DNA from: an uncultured Thermomicrobium sp.
Lineage (GTDB): Bacteria > Chloroflexota > Chloroflexia > Thermomicrobiales > Thermomicrobiaceae
Direction of reading: 5' to 3'
DNA: 33,257 nucleotides
Assembly: GCA_938028665.1 (NCBI GenBank)
Contig: CALIMB010000002.1
Span: forward strand, 1 to 33,257
Shown: positions 4,057 to 20,941 of the stretch, one piece after another
Layout: every line of letters begins with the position of its first letter
Position numbering within the stretch: position 1 is the first letter of the stretch
Notes under the pieces: model-generated
Told to the model about the DNA's origin: nothing
The model's database searches: none
The model's input: the letters and a program-made list of their open reading frames with translations, nothing else
Program-made: the position numbers and the translations under genes

Positions 4057-4072
4057 CTTCTCCAGTTGAAGA

Positions 4073-4135
4073 GGGCGATGGAGTCCGCCCGGGCGTCTTT
4101 ACGCCCGAACTGCCGCTGACGGCTGATGGCTCCTG
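4073..4135 (+). ncRNA. Fluoride riboswitch aptamer (crcB motif)
   Basis: The sequence matches the fluoride aptamer nearly base for base in its conserved parts. Stem GGGCG/CGCCC (4073-4077/4086-4090) closes the 8-base loop AUGGAGUC. GGAGUC in that loop forms the diagnostic pseudoknot with GGCUCC (4128-4133). GAACUGCCG-CUGA-CGGCUGAUGG (4107-4129) contains the second stem GCCG/CGGC and the conserved CUGAUGG. The arrangement is that of the Thermotoga petrophila aptamer, except for an extra 6-bp hairpin (GGGCGU/ACGCCC, 4091-4106) between the two stems. This RNA class senses fluoride and turns on fluoride-resistance genes; here it lies directly before an antiporter gene. Confidence 0.95.
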
Positions 4136-4169
4136 TCCACACGGTCTGTGGGCAGGAGTCAACGTTTTT
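4130..4169 (+). terminator. Riboswitch-controlled intrinsic terminator
   Basis: CTCCTGTCCACA (4130-4141) pairs with TGTGGGCAGGAG (4147-4158) over 12 bp around a CGGTC loop, and a T-run (4165-4169) follows seven bases later. Its 5' arm shares CTCC (4130-4133) with the aptamer pseudoknot, so fluoride binding and termination are mutually exclusive: fluoride should allow read-through into the antiporter gene. Confidence 0.9.
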
Positions 4170-4219: not shown

Positions 4220-5395
4220 GTGGAAAACGTCTGGGCAATCGCGGCAGTATGGGTTGGGCTGGCCCTGCTGGCAAGTATCTTCTCCATTCGGCTAGGAATT
4301 TCCGTTGCTCTCTTAGAAATCTTAGTGGGGGTCCTGGCCGGTAACCTTCTCCATCTCCACGTAACCGACTGGATCAACACCTTTGCCAGCTTTGGCGCTG
4401 TGCTGCTCACGTTTTTAGCCGGTGCTGAAATCGAACCGGATGCACTTCGCCGACACCTCAAGCCAAGCCTGGCCATTGGTATCGCTGGCTTCTTCTTCCC
4501 CTTCCTTGGTGCCGCTGCTTTCGCCCGATTTGTTGCTGGATGGACAATGCCGCAAGCTTGGATAGCCGGTCTCGCATTGTCGACGACATCGGTCGCTGTT
4601 GTCTACGCTGTCATGGTCGAGACTGGCCTCAATGAGACTGATCTGGGCAAGCTCATCCTGGCTGCCTGCTTTGTGAACGATCTTGGTACCGTTCTGGCTC
4701 TCGGGCTCATCTTTGCTAACTACAACCTATGGCTCTTGGCTTTCGTCGTCAGCACGTTCGTCGTGCTAGCTTTCCTTCCGCGGGCAATGCGCTTTGTGGT
4801 CACCGTGTGGGGAAACCGGGTTAGTGAGCCAGAAGTGAAATTCCTCTTGCTCGTGCTGTTCTTCCTCGGCTGGCTGGCGACACGCGCCAAGAGTGAGGCA
4901 GTTCTTCCCGCGTACCTCGTTGGACTAGTTGTTGCTGGCGTCTTCAGTCAGCAACGAACGCTGATGCTGCGGCTCCGCACCATTGCCTTTGCTCTGTTAA
5001 CCCCGTGGTATTTTCTCAAAGCAGGACTCTACGTCTCCATACCAGCTCTTCTCAGCGGTATTGGCCTCATCCTTGCTTTGCTGTTGGTGAAGATGGCTGC
5101 CAAGCTGGTTGGTGTTGGGCCACTCACCCTGCTTTTCGGTATGGGGCGCCGAAGTGGTACCTACACCACGCTGCTCATGTCCACGGGACTCACTTTTGGG
5201 ACTATCTCCGCACTCTTTGGGCTCAACAATGGAATCATTGACCAGGCTCAATATACCGCGCTGGTGACTGCTGTGATCGGCTCTGCGCTTGTTCCCACTT
5301 GGATTGCCCAGACCTGGTTTTTGCCATCCTCGACTGAAGAGACAGTCATTGAAACTCCGCAGCTGGTGGAGACAAGGATTACCGGAGAGGAGTGA
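4220..5395 (+). CDS. Cation:proton antiporter (CPA/Kef-type), fluoride-controlled
   Basis: A 391-residue integral membrane protein made almost entirely of hydrophobic helices (about 10-12), matching the transport domain of the monovalent cation:proton antiporter superfamily without the C-terminal TrkA-N/RCK domain of KefB/KefC. FVNDLGTV near residue 154 carries the Asn-Asp pair at the ion-binding helix, the form seen in electroneutral CPA members (electrogenic ones usually have Asp-Asp). GTG at 4220 follows AGGGGGG and starts the first helix correctly. Antiporters of this kind are known among fluoride-riboswitch-controlled genes, and the riboswitch lies 50 bases upstream. Likely role: fluoride or pH/ion stress relief at the cytoplasmic membrane. 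The exported ion cannot be told from sequence; direct fluoride/proton exchange by this family is only a possibility. The next gene starts 6 bases later. Confidence 0.88.
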   Translation: MENVWAIAAVWVGLALLASIFSIRLGISVALLEILVGVLAGNLLHLHVTDWINTFASFGAVLLTFLAGAEIEPDALRRHLKPSLAIGIAGFFFPFLGAAAFARFVAGWTMPQAWIAGLALSTTSVAVVYAVMVETGLNETDLGKLILAACFVNDLGTVLALGLIFANYNLWLLAFVVSTFVVLAFLPRAMRFVVTVWGNRVSEPEVKFLLLVLFFLGWLATRAKSEAVLPAYLVGLVVAGVFSQQRTLMLRLRTIAFALLTPWYFLKAGLYVSIPALLSGIGLILALLLVKMAAKLVGVGPLTLLFGMGRRSGTYTTLLMSTGLTFGTISALFGLNNGIIDQAQYTALVTAVIGSALVPTWIAQTWFLPSSTEETVIETPQLVETRITGEE

Positions 5396-6653: not shown

Positions 6654-9600
6654 ATGCGGCTGCTGTTGGAGCTCCGTGATCACATTGGTTTAGTTCCCAA
6701 TCCTGTGAGCCAAGCCACACGACAGGCACGGTCCCGCATCCGTGGTGCCGAGGTGAGTATTAGCGTCTGCCCGTACTGTGCGGTCGGCTGCTCCCAGCTC
6801 GTCTATACCAAGGATGGCCGGGTGATCGATATCGAGGGGAACTACGAAAGCCCAATCAATGGCGGTACCCTCTGTCCGAAAGGCGCAGCCACCTGGCAGC
6901 TCATTCACAGTCCCCTTCGCGAACTCCGCGTGAGGTATCGCGCTCCGTACAGTGACCACTGGGAGGAGCGTCCTCTTGACTGGGCGATGGAACGTATTGC
7001 TCAGCTCGTCAAGGAGACCCGCGACGCTACCTTCCTCCATCGTGATGAAAATGGTCTCGTCGTCAATCGGACCCTGGGGATCGCTCACTTGGGTGGAGCA
7101 ACCTTGGATAACGAGGAGAATTATCTCATTAAGAAGCTCTTCACCGGAGGACTGGGTATCGTCGCTGTTGAAAACCAAGCACGCATATGACATTCCAGCA
7201 CGGTGCCCGGTCTGGGCGCCCGACTAGGACGAGGTGGTGCCACAACAACCCTTGCTAGCTTGGCCGAAAGCGACTGTATTGTGATCATGGGCTCTAATAT
7301 GGCCGAAAATCATCCGGTCGGCTTCCGCTTCGTCGTCAAGGCGCGTCAGCGTGGTGCACGCATCATCCATATCGATCCTCGCTTCTCCCGCACCTCTGCG
7401 CTTGCTGACCTGCATGTGCCCATTCGGCCGGGAAGTGACCTCGTTTTTCTCGGTGCCCTGGTGAACTACGTCTTACACTCAGAACGCTGGAACAATGATC
7501 CTTTCTTCCGCGAGTACGTGCTGTACTACACCAATGCCAGCGTCCTCATCTCCCCCGACTTCCGCGATACCGAAGATCTCGCCGGCCTGTTCAGCGGGTA
7601 TGATCCGCATCAGCGTCGCTATGATCCCTCAAGCTGGCAGTATGCGGGACAAGTGCGGAGGCTTGAGGGAGAACGTTGGCCCTGCCGGCCATTCGTTGCA
7701 CCGGAGCGCGATCCGACGCTTCAGCATCCCAACTGTGCCTTGCAGGTTGTGAAGCGTCACTTTGCGCGCTACACACCGGACCTTGTTGAGCAGGCGTGTG
7801 GTGTTCCGCGCGATCTTTTCCTCGCAGTTGCCGACACGATCCTCGCCAATTCTGGACGTGATCGCACGACCGCCTTCTGCTATGCCGTAGCCTGGACACA
7901 GCACACCATTGGGACACAGATCATCTCCTGCTGTGCCTTGCTGCAGCTGCTCCTCGGGAACATCGGGCGTCCCGGGGGTGGCATTTTGGCCTTGCGCGGT
8001 CATGCAACGATTCAGGGATCAACCGATATCCCCACCCTTTTCGACCTCCTTCCTGGGTATCTCAAGATGCCACGGGCAATTCCCCAGCATGCCACACTCG
8101 CTGACTACTTCGCCGCGGAGCGTCCCGCGACTGGTCTCTGGTATGACATGCCCAAGTTCCTGATTTCGCTTCTCAAGGCGTGGTATGGCGATGCGGCAAC
8201 ACCAGAAAATGACTTTGCCTATGAGCTACTACCCAAAATCGGCGGTGACTATTCGTTTCAGTCACTCCTGACGATGATGAAAGACGGCATCATTAAGGGA
8301 CTCTTCGTCATGGGGATGAATCCTGCCGTCGGTGGGCAGAATGCCCGACTGGCTCGCCAGGCCTTGGCCAATCTCGATTGGCTCGTTGTTCGCGACGTCC
8401 ACGAGATCGAAACGGCATCCTTCTGGTATAACGCTCCTGAGGTGCGGAGTGGCGAGGTCCGGCCGCAGGACATCAAGACCGAAGTGATCTTCCTCCCTGC
8501 TGCCATCGCTGCGGAAAAGGATGGCACATTCACGAATACCCACCGACTCGTGCAGTGGCACGACAAGGCCGTCGATCCTCCAGGTGAGGCCCGTTCGGAA
8601 GCACACTTTATCTTTCACCTTGGACGTCGCCTCAAGGAACTCTACGCCGGCGATACGTCACCGGCCGGCCGTCAGATCGCCGCACTGACCTGGGATTACC
8701 CAACAGTGGGACCACATCAGGAACCCGATCTCATGGCAGTGGCTCGTGAAATCAATGGATATCGGGTCAGCGATGGACACCCAGTCGCTGGCTTTCACGA
8801 GCTGGCCGATGACGGCTCAACTGCTTGCGGTTGTTGGATTTATTCGGGCATTGTCACCCCAGAAGGGGAGCACCGTGCGAAACGCCGACGTGGCGATGAT
8901 CGTGCCAGTCTCGACTGGGGCTTTGCTTGGCCCGCTAATCGGCGCATTCTGTATAATCGCGCCTCGGCTGATCCGCAGGGACGTCCGTGGAGCGAACGAA
9001 AGAAATGGATCTGGTGGGACCCCACCCAACAGCGTTGGGTGGGCTATGATGTCCCTGATTTTCCAGCCACCAAACCCCCCGACTACCAGCCACCACCAGG
9101 AAGCCGTGGGCTCGATGCCCATCCGGGTACAGCACCGTTCATCATGATGCTGGACGGGCAAGGCTGGCTGTTTGTCCCGTTTGGTCTCCTTGATGGTCCG
9201 CTACCAACACATTACGAACCCTGGGAAACACCAGTGTGCAACCCACTCTATCCTGAGCAGCCGCGTAGCCCAGTAGCGCCGGTTTTTCTCCGTCCTGACA
9301 ACCCCTATCATGAAATTGGTGACCCCCGCTATCCTTATGTCATCACAACGTACCGCCTTACGGAACATCTCACGGCGGGTGGTATGAGCCGCTGGGTACC
9401 CTGGCTGGCCGAGCTCCAGCCGGCCGGCTTCGTCGAAATCAGCCCGGAGCTTGCCCGAGAGCTTGGGATCACTACTGGCGATTGGGTCATCGTCGAGACG
9501 GCACGGGGCTCTGCCGAGGCGCGTGCCCTGGTGACTGAACGCATGCAGCCCCTCGTGATCGCCGGACGAACAGTGCATGTGATCGGTATGCCCTGGCATT

Positions 9601-9743
9601 TCGGTTTTGGTGGGCTTGCCACTGGTGGCATCGCCAACGAACTAGCCGCACTCATCGAGGATCCGAACTCCTTAATCCACGAGGCGAAGTCGTTTACCTG
9701 CACCATCCGCAAGGGGCGGCTGCACCAGGAGGGTCAATGGTGA
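6654..9743 (+). CDS. fdhA: Formate dehydrogenase catalytic subunit, selenocysteine-containing
   Basis: A 1029-residue molybdopterin oxidoreductase that oxidises formate to CO2. The frame is interrupted only by TGA at 7188-7190, read as selenocysteine 179: the context NQARI-U-HSSTVPGLG is that of the Mo/W-coordinating residue in the FdhF/FdnG family. An N-terminal [4Fe-4S] site is formed by Cys39, 42, 46 and 74 (CPYCAVGC...GTLCPKG). The C-terminal molydopterin dinucleotide-binding domain contains the YRLTEH and GWSRWVP-like stretch and MPWHFGFGGLATG. No twin-arginine signal is visible, so the active site probably faces the cytoplasm, unlike E. coli FdnG. The ATG at 6654 has an AGGAGG ribosome site 8 bases upstream. 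The gene overlaps fdhB by 7 bases. Annotation pipelines that read TGA as stop will split it in two. Confidence 0.95.
7188..7220 (+). promoter_or_regulatory. Sec codon UGA and SECIS hairpin in fdhA
   Basis: TGA (7188-7190) is followed after exactly 11 bases by a 7-bp stem GGUGCCC/GGGCGCC (7202-7208/7214-7220) with loop GGUCU (7209-7213). The loop sequence and the spacing are those of the E. coli formate dehydrogenase SECIS. Counting the U of UGA as 1, U17, G23 and U24, the bases E. coli SelB needs, are all present (7204, 7210, 7211); U17 here faces a G rather than being clearly bulged. Confidence 0.93.
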
Positions 9744-17742: not shown

Positions 17743-19188
17743 GTGGCGCGGACAACGCCACGACGAAGAGGTTGGTTGCTCATGACCAAGGACGCTCACA
17801 CCAGACCAGTGCGAATCGTTATTGCCGGTGGTGGGTTCGCCGGGGTGACAGTAGCGCACGAACTCCGCCGGGCAGCACGCCGCGGGGAGATTGAGGTCGC
17901 GTTGATCTCCCGGGAGAACGCGTTCGTTTTCTATCCACTGATGCCAGAAGTGATTTCAGGTGCCTTACGTGTTGAAACTATCCTGACGTCAATTCGGCAT
18001 GTCGCACCCCATGCGCGACTCTACGCGGGAGAGCTTACCAGTATTGACCTTGAGCGGAGGGTGGTCACGATCCGGCATGGGTTGTACCAACATCGCCAGG
18101 AGTCTTTAGAGCTCTCCTATGACCATCTCGTTCTCGCGTTGGGTGGTGTGCCGGCCACATTTGGTATTCCAGGACTTGACGACTACGCGTTTGATGTTCA
18201 GCGACTCGCGAATGCCTTTGCCCTCCGAAACCACCTTATTGATCTCCTCGAACAAGCCGATATCGAAGCGGATCCAGAGGAGCAGCGGCGTTTACTGACG
18301 GTTGTGGTGATCGGGGGTGGGCCAACCGGGGTGGAAGTCGCAGCTGAGATCCGCAGCCTGTTCACGCATGCGCTCCGCTATTACCAGAACATTCGGCCGG
18401 GAACGGAGCGAGTGGTGCTAGTGGAAGCACTGTCACGCGTGCTTCCGAGCTTTCCTGAGACAGCTGCCGCGCGGGCTGTACAGGAACTCCAGCGGCGTGG
18501 GATCGAGGTCCTGCTTGGTCGCAAGGTTGTCCGAGTGGAACCTGCGGCCGTGACGCTTGAGGATGGGACAGTTCTGGAGTCACGGACGATTGTCAGTGCG
18601 ATCGGCGTGGAACCAAATCCGATTGTACGGAGCTTCAATCTTCCGCTCGATGAACGAGGACGGATCGTCGTCGATGCGTACCTGCGAGTGCAAGGCATGC
18701 CGAACGTTTGGGCACTCGGCGATAATGCGGCCGTCATCGACCCGGCGACTGGTCGACCCTATGCGCCGACCGCTCAGCATGCGGTACGACAAGCCCAGCT
18801 ATTGGCACGTAATCTCTTAGCGACCCTGCATCACCGCGAGCTGGCGCCGATGCGCTATCGCACCCGCGGTATGATGGTCACGCTTGGTGATCATGCTGCT
18901 ATCGCCTGGCTCGGTCGGGTGACGCTTGATGGCTTCCTCGCCTGGTGGCTCTGGCGCACCTATGCGCTCCTACACATCCCGCGTTGGGATCGTCGCATGC
19001 GGTTAGCGATGGAGTGGATGCTCGATCTTTTGTTCCCACCGGAACTGGTTCAGCTCAAGGTGGGACAGCCAGCGCCGGCCACCCGCCGCGTGGTCGACGC
19101 GGCTTTGCGTCGGCTGTGGGAGGGAGTGCCACCACCGAGTCTTTCCGGACTACCGATTGTCGGCTCAGCGCGGCGGCGCTGCGAGTGA
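17743..19188 (+). CDS. ndh: Type II NADH dehydrogenase-like FAD oxidoreductase
   Basis: A 481-residue flavoprotein that should oxidise NADH and reduce quinone at the inner face of the membrane without pumping protons. The FAD dinucleotide fold is RIVIAGGGFAGVTVAHEL near residue 25; the NADH fold is TVVVIGGGPTGVEVAAEI near residue 187. PNVWALGDNAAV and PTAQHAVRQAQLLARNL are the family's FAD-ribityl and quinone-side motifs. A C-terminal amphipathic region (FLAWWLWRTYALLHIPRWDRRMR) likely sits on the membrane, as in Ndh. GTG at 17743 has GGGAGG 8 bases upstream; ATG at 17782 would also give a complete protein. It overlaps the convergent peroxiredoxin gene by 24 bases. A sulfide:quinone oxidoreductase is less likely because the conserved redox cysteines are absent. 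Confidence 0.88.
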   Translation: MARTTPRRRGWLLMTKDAHTRPVRIVIAGGGFAGVTVAHELRRAARRGEIEVALISRENAFVFYPLMPEVISGALRVETILTSIRHVAPHARLYAGELTSIDLERRVVTIRHGLYQHRQESLELSYDHLVLALGGVPATFGIPGLDDYAFDVQRLANAFALRNHLIDLLEQADIEADPEEQRRLLTVVVIGGGPTGVEVAAEIRSLFTHALRYYQNIRPGTERVVLVEALSRVLPSFPETAAARAVQELQRRGIEVLLGRKVVRVEPAAVTLEDGTVLESRTIVSAIGVEPNPIVRSFNLPLDERGRIVVDAYLRVQGMPNVWALGDNAAVIDPATGRPYAPTAQHAVRQAQLLARNLLATLHHRELAPMRYRTRGMMVTLGDHAAIAWLGRVTLDGFLAWWLWRTYALLHIPRWDRRMRLAMEWMLDLLFPPELVQLKVGQPAPATRRVVDAALRRLWEGVPPPSLSGLPIVGSARRRCE

Positions 19189-19647
19189 GCGAAGAGCGGC
19201 GAGTGCTGCTTCGACGTCTGGAAGTGCACGCAGGGGTGCCCGCTCGCGATAGGCAATCGTGCCGCTGCGGTCGACGATAACGATTGCCCGTGCGGGGACC
19301 TCACGGTACCCGATGAGCTCGTCAATCTTCACGTCGTACGCCGTGATAGCCTCGCGGTTCCAATCACTGAGGAAGGGGAAGTCGACACCGAGTTCGCGTG
19401 CCCACACTGCCTGAGCAAAGTGGCTATCGCAGCTGATCGCGTAAACTTCGGCGCCCAGTGCGCGAATCTCCTCAATCTTGTCCCACAACTGGGACAACTG
19501 ATTCCTTCAACCGCTCGTGAAGGCGAAGTGGAAGAAGGTGAGAACAGCGATGCGCTCTTGCAAGATTTCACTCAAGGTGAGTGGCTGACCGAGTGTGCTT
19601 GGGAGACGAAACTCTGGAGCTCGTTCACCGACCTGGCCTGCCATCAT
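19165..19647 (-). CDS. Peroxiredoxin (AhpC/TSA family) with selenocysteine at the peroxidatic site
   Basis: A 160-residue thioredoxin-fold peroxidase, but only if TGA at 19507-19509 is read as selenocysteine 47. Upstream of it the frame encodes GQVGERAPEFRLPSTLGQPLTL and VLTFFHFAFTSG; downstream it runs on without shift as RNQLSQLWDKIEEIRALGAEVYAISCDS...LGVDFPFLSDW...REVPARAIVIVDRSG. The TGA stands where the family has its peroxidatic cysteine (AFT..C), so it replaces the catalytic residue. Known selenoprotein peroxiredoxins have the same substitution. A SECIS-like hairpin follows directly. GGAAGGG serves ATG at 19647 or 19644. The enzyme would reduce H2O2 or organic peroxides in the cytosol. 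Standard gene callers will keep only a TTG-started fragment from 19497, without the active site. Confidence 0.88.
19478..19509 (-). promoter_or_regulatory. Sec codon UGA and SECIS-like hairpin in the peroxiredoxin gene
   Basis: On the minus strand TGA (19509-19507) is followed after 9 bases by a perfect 8-bp stem UUGUCCCA/UGGGACAA (19497-19490 and 19485-19478) with loop GUUG. The loop begins 17 bases after the UGA and opens with G, which fits the general bacterial SECIS description (apical loop 16-37 bases away with an early G), though not the E. coli GGUCU loop. Confidence 0.75.
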
Positions 19648-19741
19648 CGTTCCCTTCCAACTGAACCGATATCTGCATTATGCTGCGATGGTACGATACC
19701 GAAAGCGAGCGGTGGGAGTACTGGAGGGAGTGAGCAAGACC

Positions 19742-20941
19742 GTGCAGCTGTTCAATGAGCTGACGAGGCGAGTTGAGCCTTTCTCTCCAGCCGACGGGCA
19801 TACCGTCCGACTCTACGTGTGTGGTGTCACCCCCTACGATACGACTCACATGGGGCACGCGATGACCTATTTGGTGTTCGATGTCTTCAATCGTATCTGC
19901 CAGCATCATGGCTGGCGCGTCAAGTATGTGCAGAACATCACGGATATCGACGATGACATCCTCCGCAAAGCTCGTGAGGTGGGAGAGCCGTGGGACCGGC
20001 TCGGGGATCGGTATGTCCGGCAGTTTCAGGAGGATTTAAATGCGCTCAACGTGCTTTTCCCCTCGGTCTTTCCCCGAGCCACTGAGGAAATACCGCTCAT
20101 GATCGAGATGATCCAGCGGCTGCTCGAACAAGGTGCAGCGTACATCCGTGACGGTACGGTCTACTTCCGCGTTGCCAGCGCTCCGGACTATGGGCATCTG
20201 TGTCGCTGTAGTCGCGAGGAGATGATCCGCCTCTCGGCCGAGCGGGGCGCCGATCCGCAGGATCCGCGGAAAGAAGACCCGCTCGATTTCATTCTCTGGC
20301 AAGCAGCACAGCCCGGCGAACCGACATGGGAGAGCCCATGGGGGCCTGGGCGGCCGGGCTGGCACATCGAGTGCAGCGCGATGGCGATAAAGTACCTTGG
20401 TTCCCAGATTGATGTGCACGGCGGTGGTTCTGATCTCATTTATCCCCATCACGAGAGTGAGATTGCCCAGGCGGAAGGCTACACCGGCACGAGACCGTTC
20501 TCACGTTTCTGGGTACATGTGGCCATGGTGGAGTACCAAGGTGCAAAGATGTCGAAGTCGCTCGGTAACCTGGTACTGGTCCGTGACACCTTACGGCGTC
20601 ACAGCGGTGACGCTATCCGCCTCTATCTTCTGAGCCATCACTACCGGACGCCATTCACCTACGAGGATGACGGCCCGGCGCGGTTTGAGCCGCTTGTCCA
20701 GCATCTTCGTCAGGCGGTGAACGTCGTAGGGGGTCAGGCAACGCCGCTGGACCTTGCTCCGTTGCGTGACGAGCTGGTGGCTGCGCTCTCAGACGACCTG
20801 AATACCCCGCGAGCGATTGCCGTGCTGGCGGAGGCAGCTGATCGGCTGCTTGCAGCTGCTCGGGAGGGCCGTGACGTGGAACGTGCCCGCGAGCAGCTCC
20901 GGGAAATGGGAAGTCTCATCGGACTTACGGTGACGCGATGA
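19742..20941 (+). CDS. cysS: Cysteinyl-tRNA synthetase / MshC-like cysteine ligase
   Basis: About 399 residues of a class I cysteine-activating enzyme. VCGVTPYDTTHMGHAMTYLVFD carries the first zinc Cys and the HIGH motif (HMGH); YVQNITDIDDDIL, GRPGWHIECSAMA, GGGSDLIYPHHESEIAQAE and KMSKSLGNLV (KMSKS) follow. The TPYDxTHxGHA and YVQN.TD.DD versions, and the short C-terminus, resemble the mycothiol ligase MshC more than standard CysRS (CGPTVY..HIGN), which is also about 60 residues longer. It could be the genome's only CysRS in a divergent form, or a thiol-biosynthesis ligase. I place the start at GTG 19742, giving the usual QLFNELTRR N-terminus behind GGAGGGAG; GTG 19730 and ATG 19688 are alternatives. 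The peroxiredoxin is divergent from it. Confidence 0.85.
   Translation: MQLFNELTRRVEPFSPADGHTVRLYVCGVTPYDTTHMGHAMTYLVFDVFNRICQHHGWRVKYVQNITDIDDDILRKAREVGEPWDRLGDRYVRQFQEDLNALNVLFPSVFPRATEEIPLMIEMIQRLLEQGAAYIRDGTVYFRVASAPDYGHLCRCSREEMIRLSAERGADPQDPRKEDPLDFILWQAAQPGEPTWESPWGPGRPGWHIECSAMAIKYLGSQIDVHGGGSDLIYPHHESEIAQAEGYTGTRPFSRFWVHVAMVEYQGAKMSKSLGNLVLVRDTLRRHSGDAIRLYLLSHHYRTPFTYEDDGPARFEPLVQHLRQAVNVVGGQATPLDLAPLRDELVAALSDDLNTPRAIAVLAEAADRLLAAAREGRDVERAREQLREMGSLIGLTVTR

Follow-up and report, generated by a model that had tools for sequence, protein, structure and literature searches.

A UGA-containing peroxiredoxin gene of Thermomicrobium, predicted to encode a selenoprotein without the usual active-site proline

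The stretch of DNA analysed here (the window) comprises positions 1 to 33,257 of a contig of an uncultured Thermomicrobium sp., a heat-loving bacterium of the phylum Chloroflexota (GenBank assembly GCA_938028665.1, contig CALIMB010000002.1). On its minus strand lies a frame (19647-19165) whose sole in-frame TGA (19509-19507) is codon 47 of 160; the frame is otherwise open and ends at a terminal TGA (19167-19165). It begins with two ATGs (ATGATG at 19647/19644) that are preceded by GGAAGGGA, and since homologues begin at the second of these, the product is 159 or 160 aa long. Reading with translation table 11 yields only a 110-aa ORF, which starts at 19497, downstream of the TGA. The features of this locus, along with a further candidate selenoprotein gene of the window, are listed in Table 1.

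Table 1. Coordinates of the features described in the window, with the evidence for each
Feature	Position	Strand	Evidence
Sec-type formate dehydrogenase alpha subunit (fdhA)	6663-9740, TGA 7188-7190	plus	Frame through TGA; PF00384/PF04879/PF01568
NADH dehydrogenase-like pyridine nucleotide-disulphide oxidoreductase, convergent	17743..19188	plus	PF07992, 181.2 bits
Putative Sec-peroxiredoxin gene, 159-160 aa	19165..19647	minus	TGA read-through translation; PF00578 and PF08534 matches
Putative bacterial SECIS hairpin, 8-bp stem, GUUG loop 17 nt after UGA, -11.3 kcal/mol	19478..19497	minus	Four published bSECIS constraints; compensatory changes
UGA (predicted Sec) codon 47, peroxidatic Cys position	19507..19509	minus	Aligned to catalytic Cys of solved peroxiredoxins; homologue column TGA 64, Cys 30
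Likely ribosome binding site, all or part of GGAAGGGA	19649..19656, approximate	minus	Read from sequence just 5' of ATGATG
cysS (cysteinyl-tRNA synthetase), divergent neighbour	19733..20941, start uncertain, upstream starts possible	plus	PF01406, 364.6 bits

The surroundings of the gene are conserved. The divergent cysS is adjacent to it in 15/15 loci of the taxonomic family that carry the Sec-peroxiredoxin (the window plus 14; tblastn of flanks), and the convergent oxidoreductase gene, which overlaps its end by 24 bp, is found in the same place in all Thermomicrobium loci by the same searches. One genus of this family (g3; L137-L139) has SelA and cysS, and no peroxiredoxin of the present type was found around its cysS; the gene appears to be lost or absent at this stretch, and not changed to a Cys form. 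Elsewhere in the window, a fluoride riboswitch (RF01734, 47.3 bits) at 4065-4142 on the plus strand lies just 5' of a Na+/H+ exchanger-type gene (PF00999) at 4220.

Translated through the TGA, the product matches PF00578 (AhpC/TSA) with 102.6 bits over residues 6-133 (cut-off 26) and PF08534 with 71.9 bits. Alignment to solved peroxiredoxins gives a match to the Aeropyrum Bcp/PrxQ structure (2cx3, 1.2e-22), with the TGA placed on its peroxidatic Cys, and M. tuberculosis AhpE matches the product over its length. An AlphaFold2 model likewise predicts a peroxiredoxin fold (pTM 0.85, pLDDT 84) with the catalytic residue, 46 in the 159-aa numbering, in the first helix turn after a strand, and the Foldseek matches listed are peroxiredoxins throughout, including AhpE (4x0x, TM 0.84/0.87). 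The NCBIfam PrxU model NF040737 scores below its cut-off (41 vs. 270 bits), and thus the protein is not a PrxU equivalog. An earlier note, made from the letters of this DNA, had held that the minus-strand frame is unbroken on both sides of the TGA, that it encodes a complete peroxiredoxin only by read-through, that the TGA occupies the catalytic position, and that a UGA-as-stop reading keeps the non-catalytic remainder; the read-through translation, the PF00578 match, the alignment with the Cys of solved peroxiredoxins at position 47 and the lone 110-aa ORF bear this description out.

A total of 94 homologues, one from an acidobacterial genome and the rest from the phylum of the window, were aligned to a profile. 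The catalytic column contains TGA in 64 sequences (hereafter Sec forms), Cys in 30 and any other residue in none, although the set was chosen partly by the presence or absence of stops and the 64:30 ratio is therefore not a frequency. The absence of a third residue from this column is informative. Among named relatives, Thermomicrobium genomes and two bins, HR27 and HR28, stand nearest; a scan for related loci recovered close relatives and one distant locus only. The orthologue is also present in the genome of the cultured Thermomicrobium strain CFH 73360. The best 21 matches among genomes of the class contain one internal TGA each, located at the same codon in every one read out; a phylum-wide sample adds many more homologues, and the same-codon TGA persists down to about 31-35% identity. 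Six Thermomicrobium genomes, each assembled separately, have it, as do many families of the phylum, and its retention at one codon across 64 homologues excludes chance. Among the Thermomicrobium genomes, dN/dS ranges from 0.02 to 0.18 before the TGA and from 0.04 to 0.09 after it (one pair with saturated dS excluded), all well below 1, and the protein on both sides is under purifying selection. The earlier note had looked to homologues for Cys at position 47 in some and Sec in others, as is observed here, and had regarded sister strains with an ordinary stop and an unconserved upstream part as evidence against a selenoprotein; the opposite was found, since both the TGA and the upstream part are kept.

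These data dispose of two readings in which the UGA is a stop. A lone TGA in one assembly, where a table-11 reading ends, could mark a pseudogene in decay, or a TGC or TGT codon for Cys that was misread in sequencing, but the recurrence of the TGA in six separate assemblies and across the phylum in 64 homologues rules this out, and purifying selection acts on both halves of a gene with no other inactivating change. Termination at the UGA with re-initiation at an in-frame TTG 9 nt 3' of it (19497), to give a C-terminal, non-catalytic protein of 110 aa, has virtually nothing to recommend it either: constraint before the TGA equals that after it, and this selection on the upstream part rules the reading out; the fragment would be without the initial strands of the fold and without the peroxidatic residue, many homologues have CTG, ATG or CTT in place of the TTG, and the Cys homologues are single full-length proteins.

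Directly after codon 47, the sequence UUGUCCCA-GUUG-UGGGACAA forms a hairpin of eight perfect pairs, and both its stem and its distance from the TGA agree with what had been noticed from the sequence before. The published bacterial SECIS model specifies a loop of 3-9 nt with G in the first two positions, a stem of 4-16 bp, a spacing of 16-37 nt and an MFE of -7.5 or lower (PMC13188914), and the hairpin lies within all four constraints and so counts as a SECIS element by these rules. Applied across the homologues, where contiguous stems only were scored, the strict rule is passed by 28/64 TGA forms and failed by 36/64, and is passed by 1/30 Cys forms. The single passing Cys form (L033) has a UPAC motif whose TGA stands three codons before the Cys, which makes it a candidate UxxC-type selenoprotein; without it, the comparison is 28/64 vs. 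0/29 (p = 4e-6, an optimistic value given that the sequences are related). The stem columns contain compensatory changes among homologues (UA/CG, UA/GC and CG/UA), and 74% of the stem cells are paired vs. 25-55% with the 3' arm shifted out of register. Paired percentages and covariation scores as high as those observed arise in 11-20 of 500 shuffles, which makes the excess a modest one, in a stretch that is also coding. By itself the hairpin is weak evidence, because similar ones follow 1-4% of the TGAs in the window (a stem of this length and a comparable loop after 14/1034, and a pass of the bSECIS rule at 37/1034 TGA triplets) and the stability of the 76-nt fold is unremarkable (z -0.97). 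A hairpin this prone to chance was set aside as sole proof.

The 2.78-Mb genome encodes proteins with profile matches over curated cut-offs to SelB (347 bits), SelA (550 bits) and SelD (363 bits), as well as a tRNA-Sec with the anticodon TCA (UCA) that also exceeds its curated cut-off (75.5 bits); the lack of Sec machinery that would have counted against a selenoprotein is thus not what the genome shows. Across the class, the co-occurrence with SelA (21/22 vs. 98/136, p = 0.016) is weakly discriminating, because most genomes of the class have SelA, and a genome that carries the TGA form, G106 (78% complete), yielded no good SelA.

At least four candidate selenoprotein genes occur in this genome, namely the Sec-peroxiredoxin, a Sec-type FdhA, SelD and a UxxC Prx-like protein. 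The fdhA gene, reported earlier as a further selenoprotein of the window with a GGUCU loop, proved real: a hairpin with a 7-bp stem carries this loop 18 nt after its TGA. Subunits of the 4Fe-4S and NrfD types are encoded downstream of fdhA. The Prx-like candidate, encoded elsewhere in the genome (L058; G000:C7 37672-38133, minus), has the UxxC motif GLRUPYCRRH along with a hairpin in which seven perfect base pairs close a GUUG loop, and an orthologue (L059) has the same UPYC. The SelD gene (L060; G000:C19 10584-11519, minus) contains an in-frame TGA in the active-site motif SCAGUAGK, so SelD is probably itself a selenoprotein.

Read-through with Trp or Cys, by a near-cognate or special tRNA, would also yield a full-length protein that is not a selenoprotein, and the assignment of Sec to codon 47 does come from sequence. 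This reading is nonetheless highly improbable: the genome contains a complete Sec system with a UCA-anticodon tRNA-Sec, the SECIS hairpin stands at the right distance and is missing in ordinary Cys homologues, and UGA does act as a stop in this genome, where it terminates this very gene.

Together these results indicate, with a probability of about 95%, that the gene encodes a one-selenocysteine peroxiredoxin, AhpE/BCP-like, whose UGA is decoded as Sec by tRNA-Sec and SelB at the downstream hairpin. What the sequences compared show is the frame with its TGA conserved in the catalytic column, a SECIS-like hairpin, Sec machinery and two-sided purifying selection, and the peroxiredoxin fold is that of the predicted model; from these we infer that Sec is inserted and that the protein acts as a peroxidase, as well as its substrate and electron donor. 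In the proposed mechanism, the hairpin with the GUUG loop, directly 3' of UGA codon 47, would recruit SelB, and SelB would deliver the tRNA-Sec(UCA) that decodes this codon as selenocysteine. At position 47, the selenolate would attack H2O2 or organic hydroperoxides to form a selenenic acid. Outside the catalytic column no Cys is conserved, as even the most frequent one occurs in just 12/64 Sec forms, and a one-Sec cycle is therefore the most likely, in which the selenenic acid would be reduced by an external thiol system.

The active site of the predicted selenoprotein departs from the described motif. It reads H40-F-A-F-T44-S-G-U47 and continues as U47-R-N-Q50, without a UxxC or UxxU motif. 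A Thr or Ser is located three residues before Sec in 62/64 Sec forms (Thr44 here), and the active-site Arg is present in 64/64. The Pro of PxxxTxxC, on the other hand, is found in 4/64 Sec forms vs. 29/30 Cys forms, where the sole exception is the UxxC-type L033 and all ordinary Cys forms have it. The Sec-peroxiredoxin motif has been described as PxxxTxxU (PMC13188914), while listed definitions without the Pro are T/SxxU (PMC1794560) and TxxU (PMC2398784); the protein studied here has His40 at this position. Replacements among the Sec forms are Val, His, Leu, Ala, Tyr, Phe or Ile. In two sequences (L116 and L126, from genomes G363 and G244) the Pro and Thr of PxxxTxxU are both replaced, giving LFDFGRVU and LFDFGRIU.

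The tree needs at most five Sec/Cys changes, which leaves too few independent pairs for significance on the loss of Pro with Sec, and given so few changes the loss may be mostly one ancestral event. No report of Pro loss in Sec-peroxiredoxins was found in a partial search of the literature, and the sequences compared are mainly of this phylum. It is plausible, if still tentative, that, in a branch of Sec-peroxiredoxins spanning the phylum, the replacement of sulfur by selenium was accompanied by loss of a near-invariant active-site Pro, and in two sequences of the Thr as well. If true, a more reactive selenolate would relax the need for the classical PxxxTxxC pocket.

The same residues bear on an alternative that shares the Sec part of the explanation, in which the protein is a selenoprotein but not a peroxidase, acting instead as a Prx-fold thiol/selenol oxidoreductase in another role. 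Loss of a Pro that is present in all ordinary Cys forms from 60/64 Sec forms, including the Pro-to-His replacement here, is in its favor, as is the additional loss of Thr in L116 and L126. However, the Thr/Ser and active-site Arg are retained in nearly all Sec forms, the CxxC/UxxC motif of thiol:disulfide oxidoreductases is absent, and the best solved relatives are peroxidases; we therefore consider a non-peroxidase role unlikely, though not negligible.

If the gene is a one-Sec peroxiredoxin, reading its UGA as a stop reduces the enzyme to a non-catalytic fragment, and antioxidant annotations in Thermomicrobium and in many genomes of the same phylum may therefore miss the active residue. The 64 Sec and 30 Cys forms would constitute a natural series for the role of selenium in peroxiredoxins, and particularly for why Sec forms can dispense with the active-site Pro.

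Published lists of selenoprotein families already include the Sec-peroxiredoxins (PMC1794560, PMC2398784, PMC5029168), to which the Thermomicrobium gene is a well-supported addition with a departure in its motif. A member (Prx, PF00578, T/SxxU) is known from Eubacterium acidaminophilum (Sohling 2001, as cited in PMC13188914), and 12 bacterial Sec-peroxiredoxins (PMC1794560) and 91 in 78 organisms (PMC5029168) have been counted. Three selenoproteins were counted for the phylum of the window (PMC1794560), and the selenoproteome literature searched does not name Thermomicrobium or this gene. Known Sec-peroxiredoxins (T/SxxU) share with the Thermomicrobium protein the Prx fold, Sec at the peroxidatic position, the TxxU and a bacterial SECIS just downstream, but have Pro in the described PxxxTxxU, where the Thermomicrobium protein has His and most Sec forms of the phylum are without Pro. 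The UxxC Prx-like thiol:disulfide oxidoreductases are likewise PF00578-like and Sec-containing, but have a different active-site arrangement with a Cys three residues after Sec, which the Thermomicrobium protein lacks. The AhpC of Blastococcus saxobsidens (PMC5330540) is also of the peroxiredoxin type, with Sec from a recoded stop and a bSECIS, but uses UAG and a CUA tRNA-Sec where the Thermomicrobium gene has UGA. By sequence and fold, the closest solved relatives are AhpE (M. tuberculosis Rv2238c) and the archaeal PrxQ/Bcp (2cx3 from Aeropyrum, 3hjp from Sulfolobus). Like the Thermomicrobium protein, these are short single-domain Prx proteins, and a conserved resolving Cys is missing in the family studied here as in the 1-Cys AhpE. 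Unlike both AhpE and archaeal PrxQ/Bcp, which have a peroxidatic Cys, the Thermomicrobium protein is predicted to have Sec at this position.
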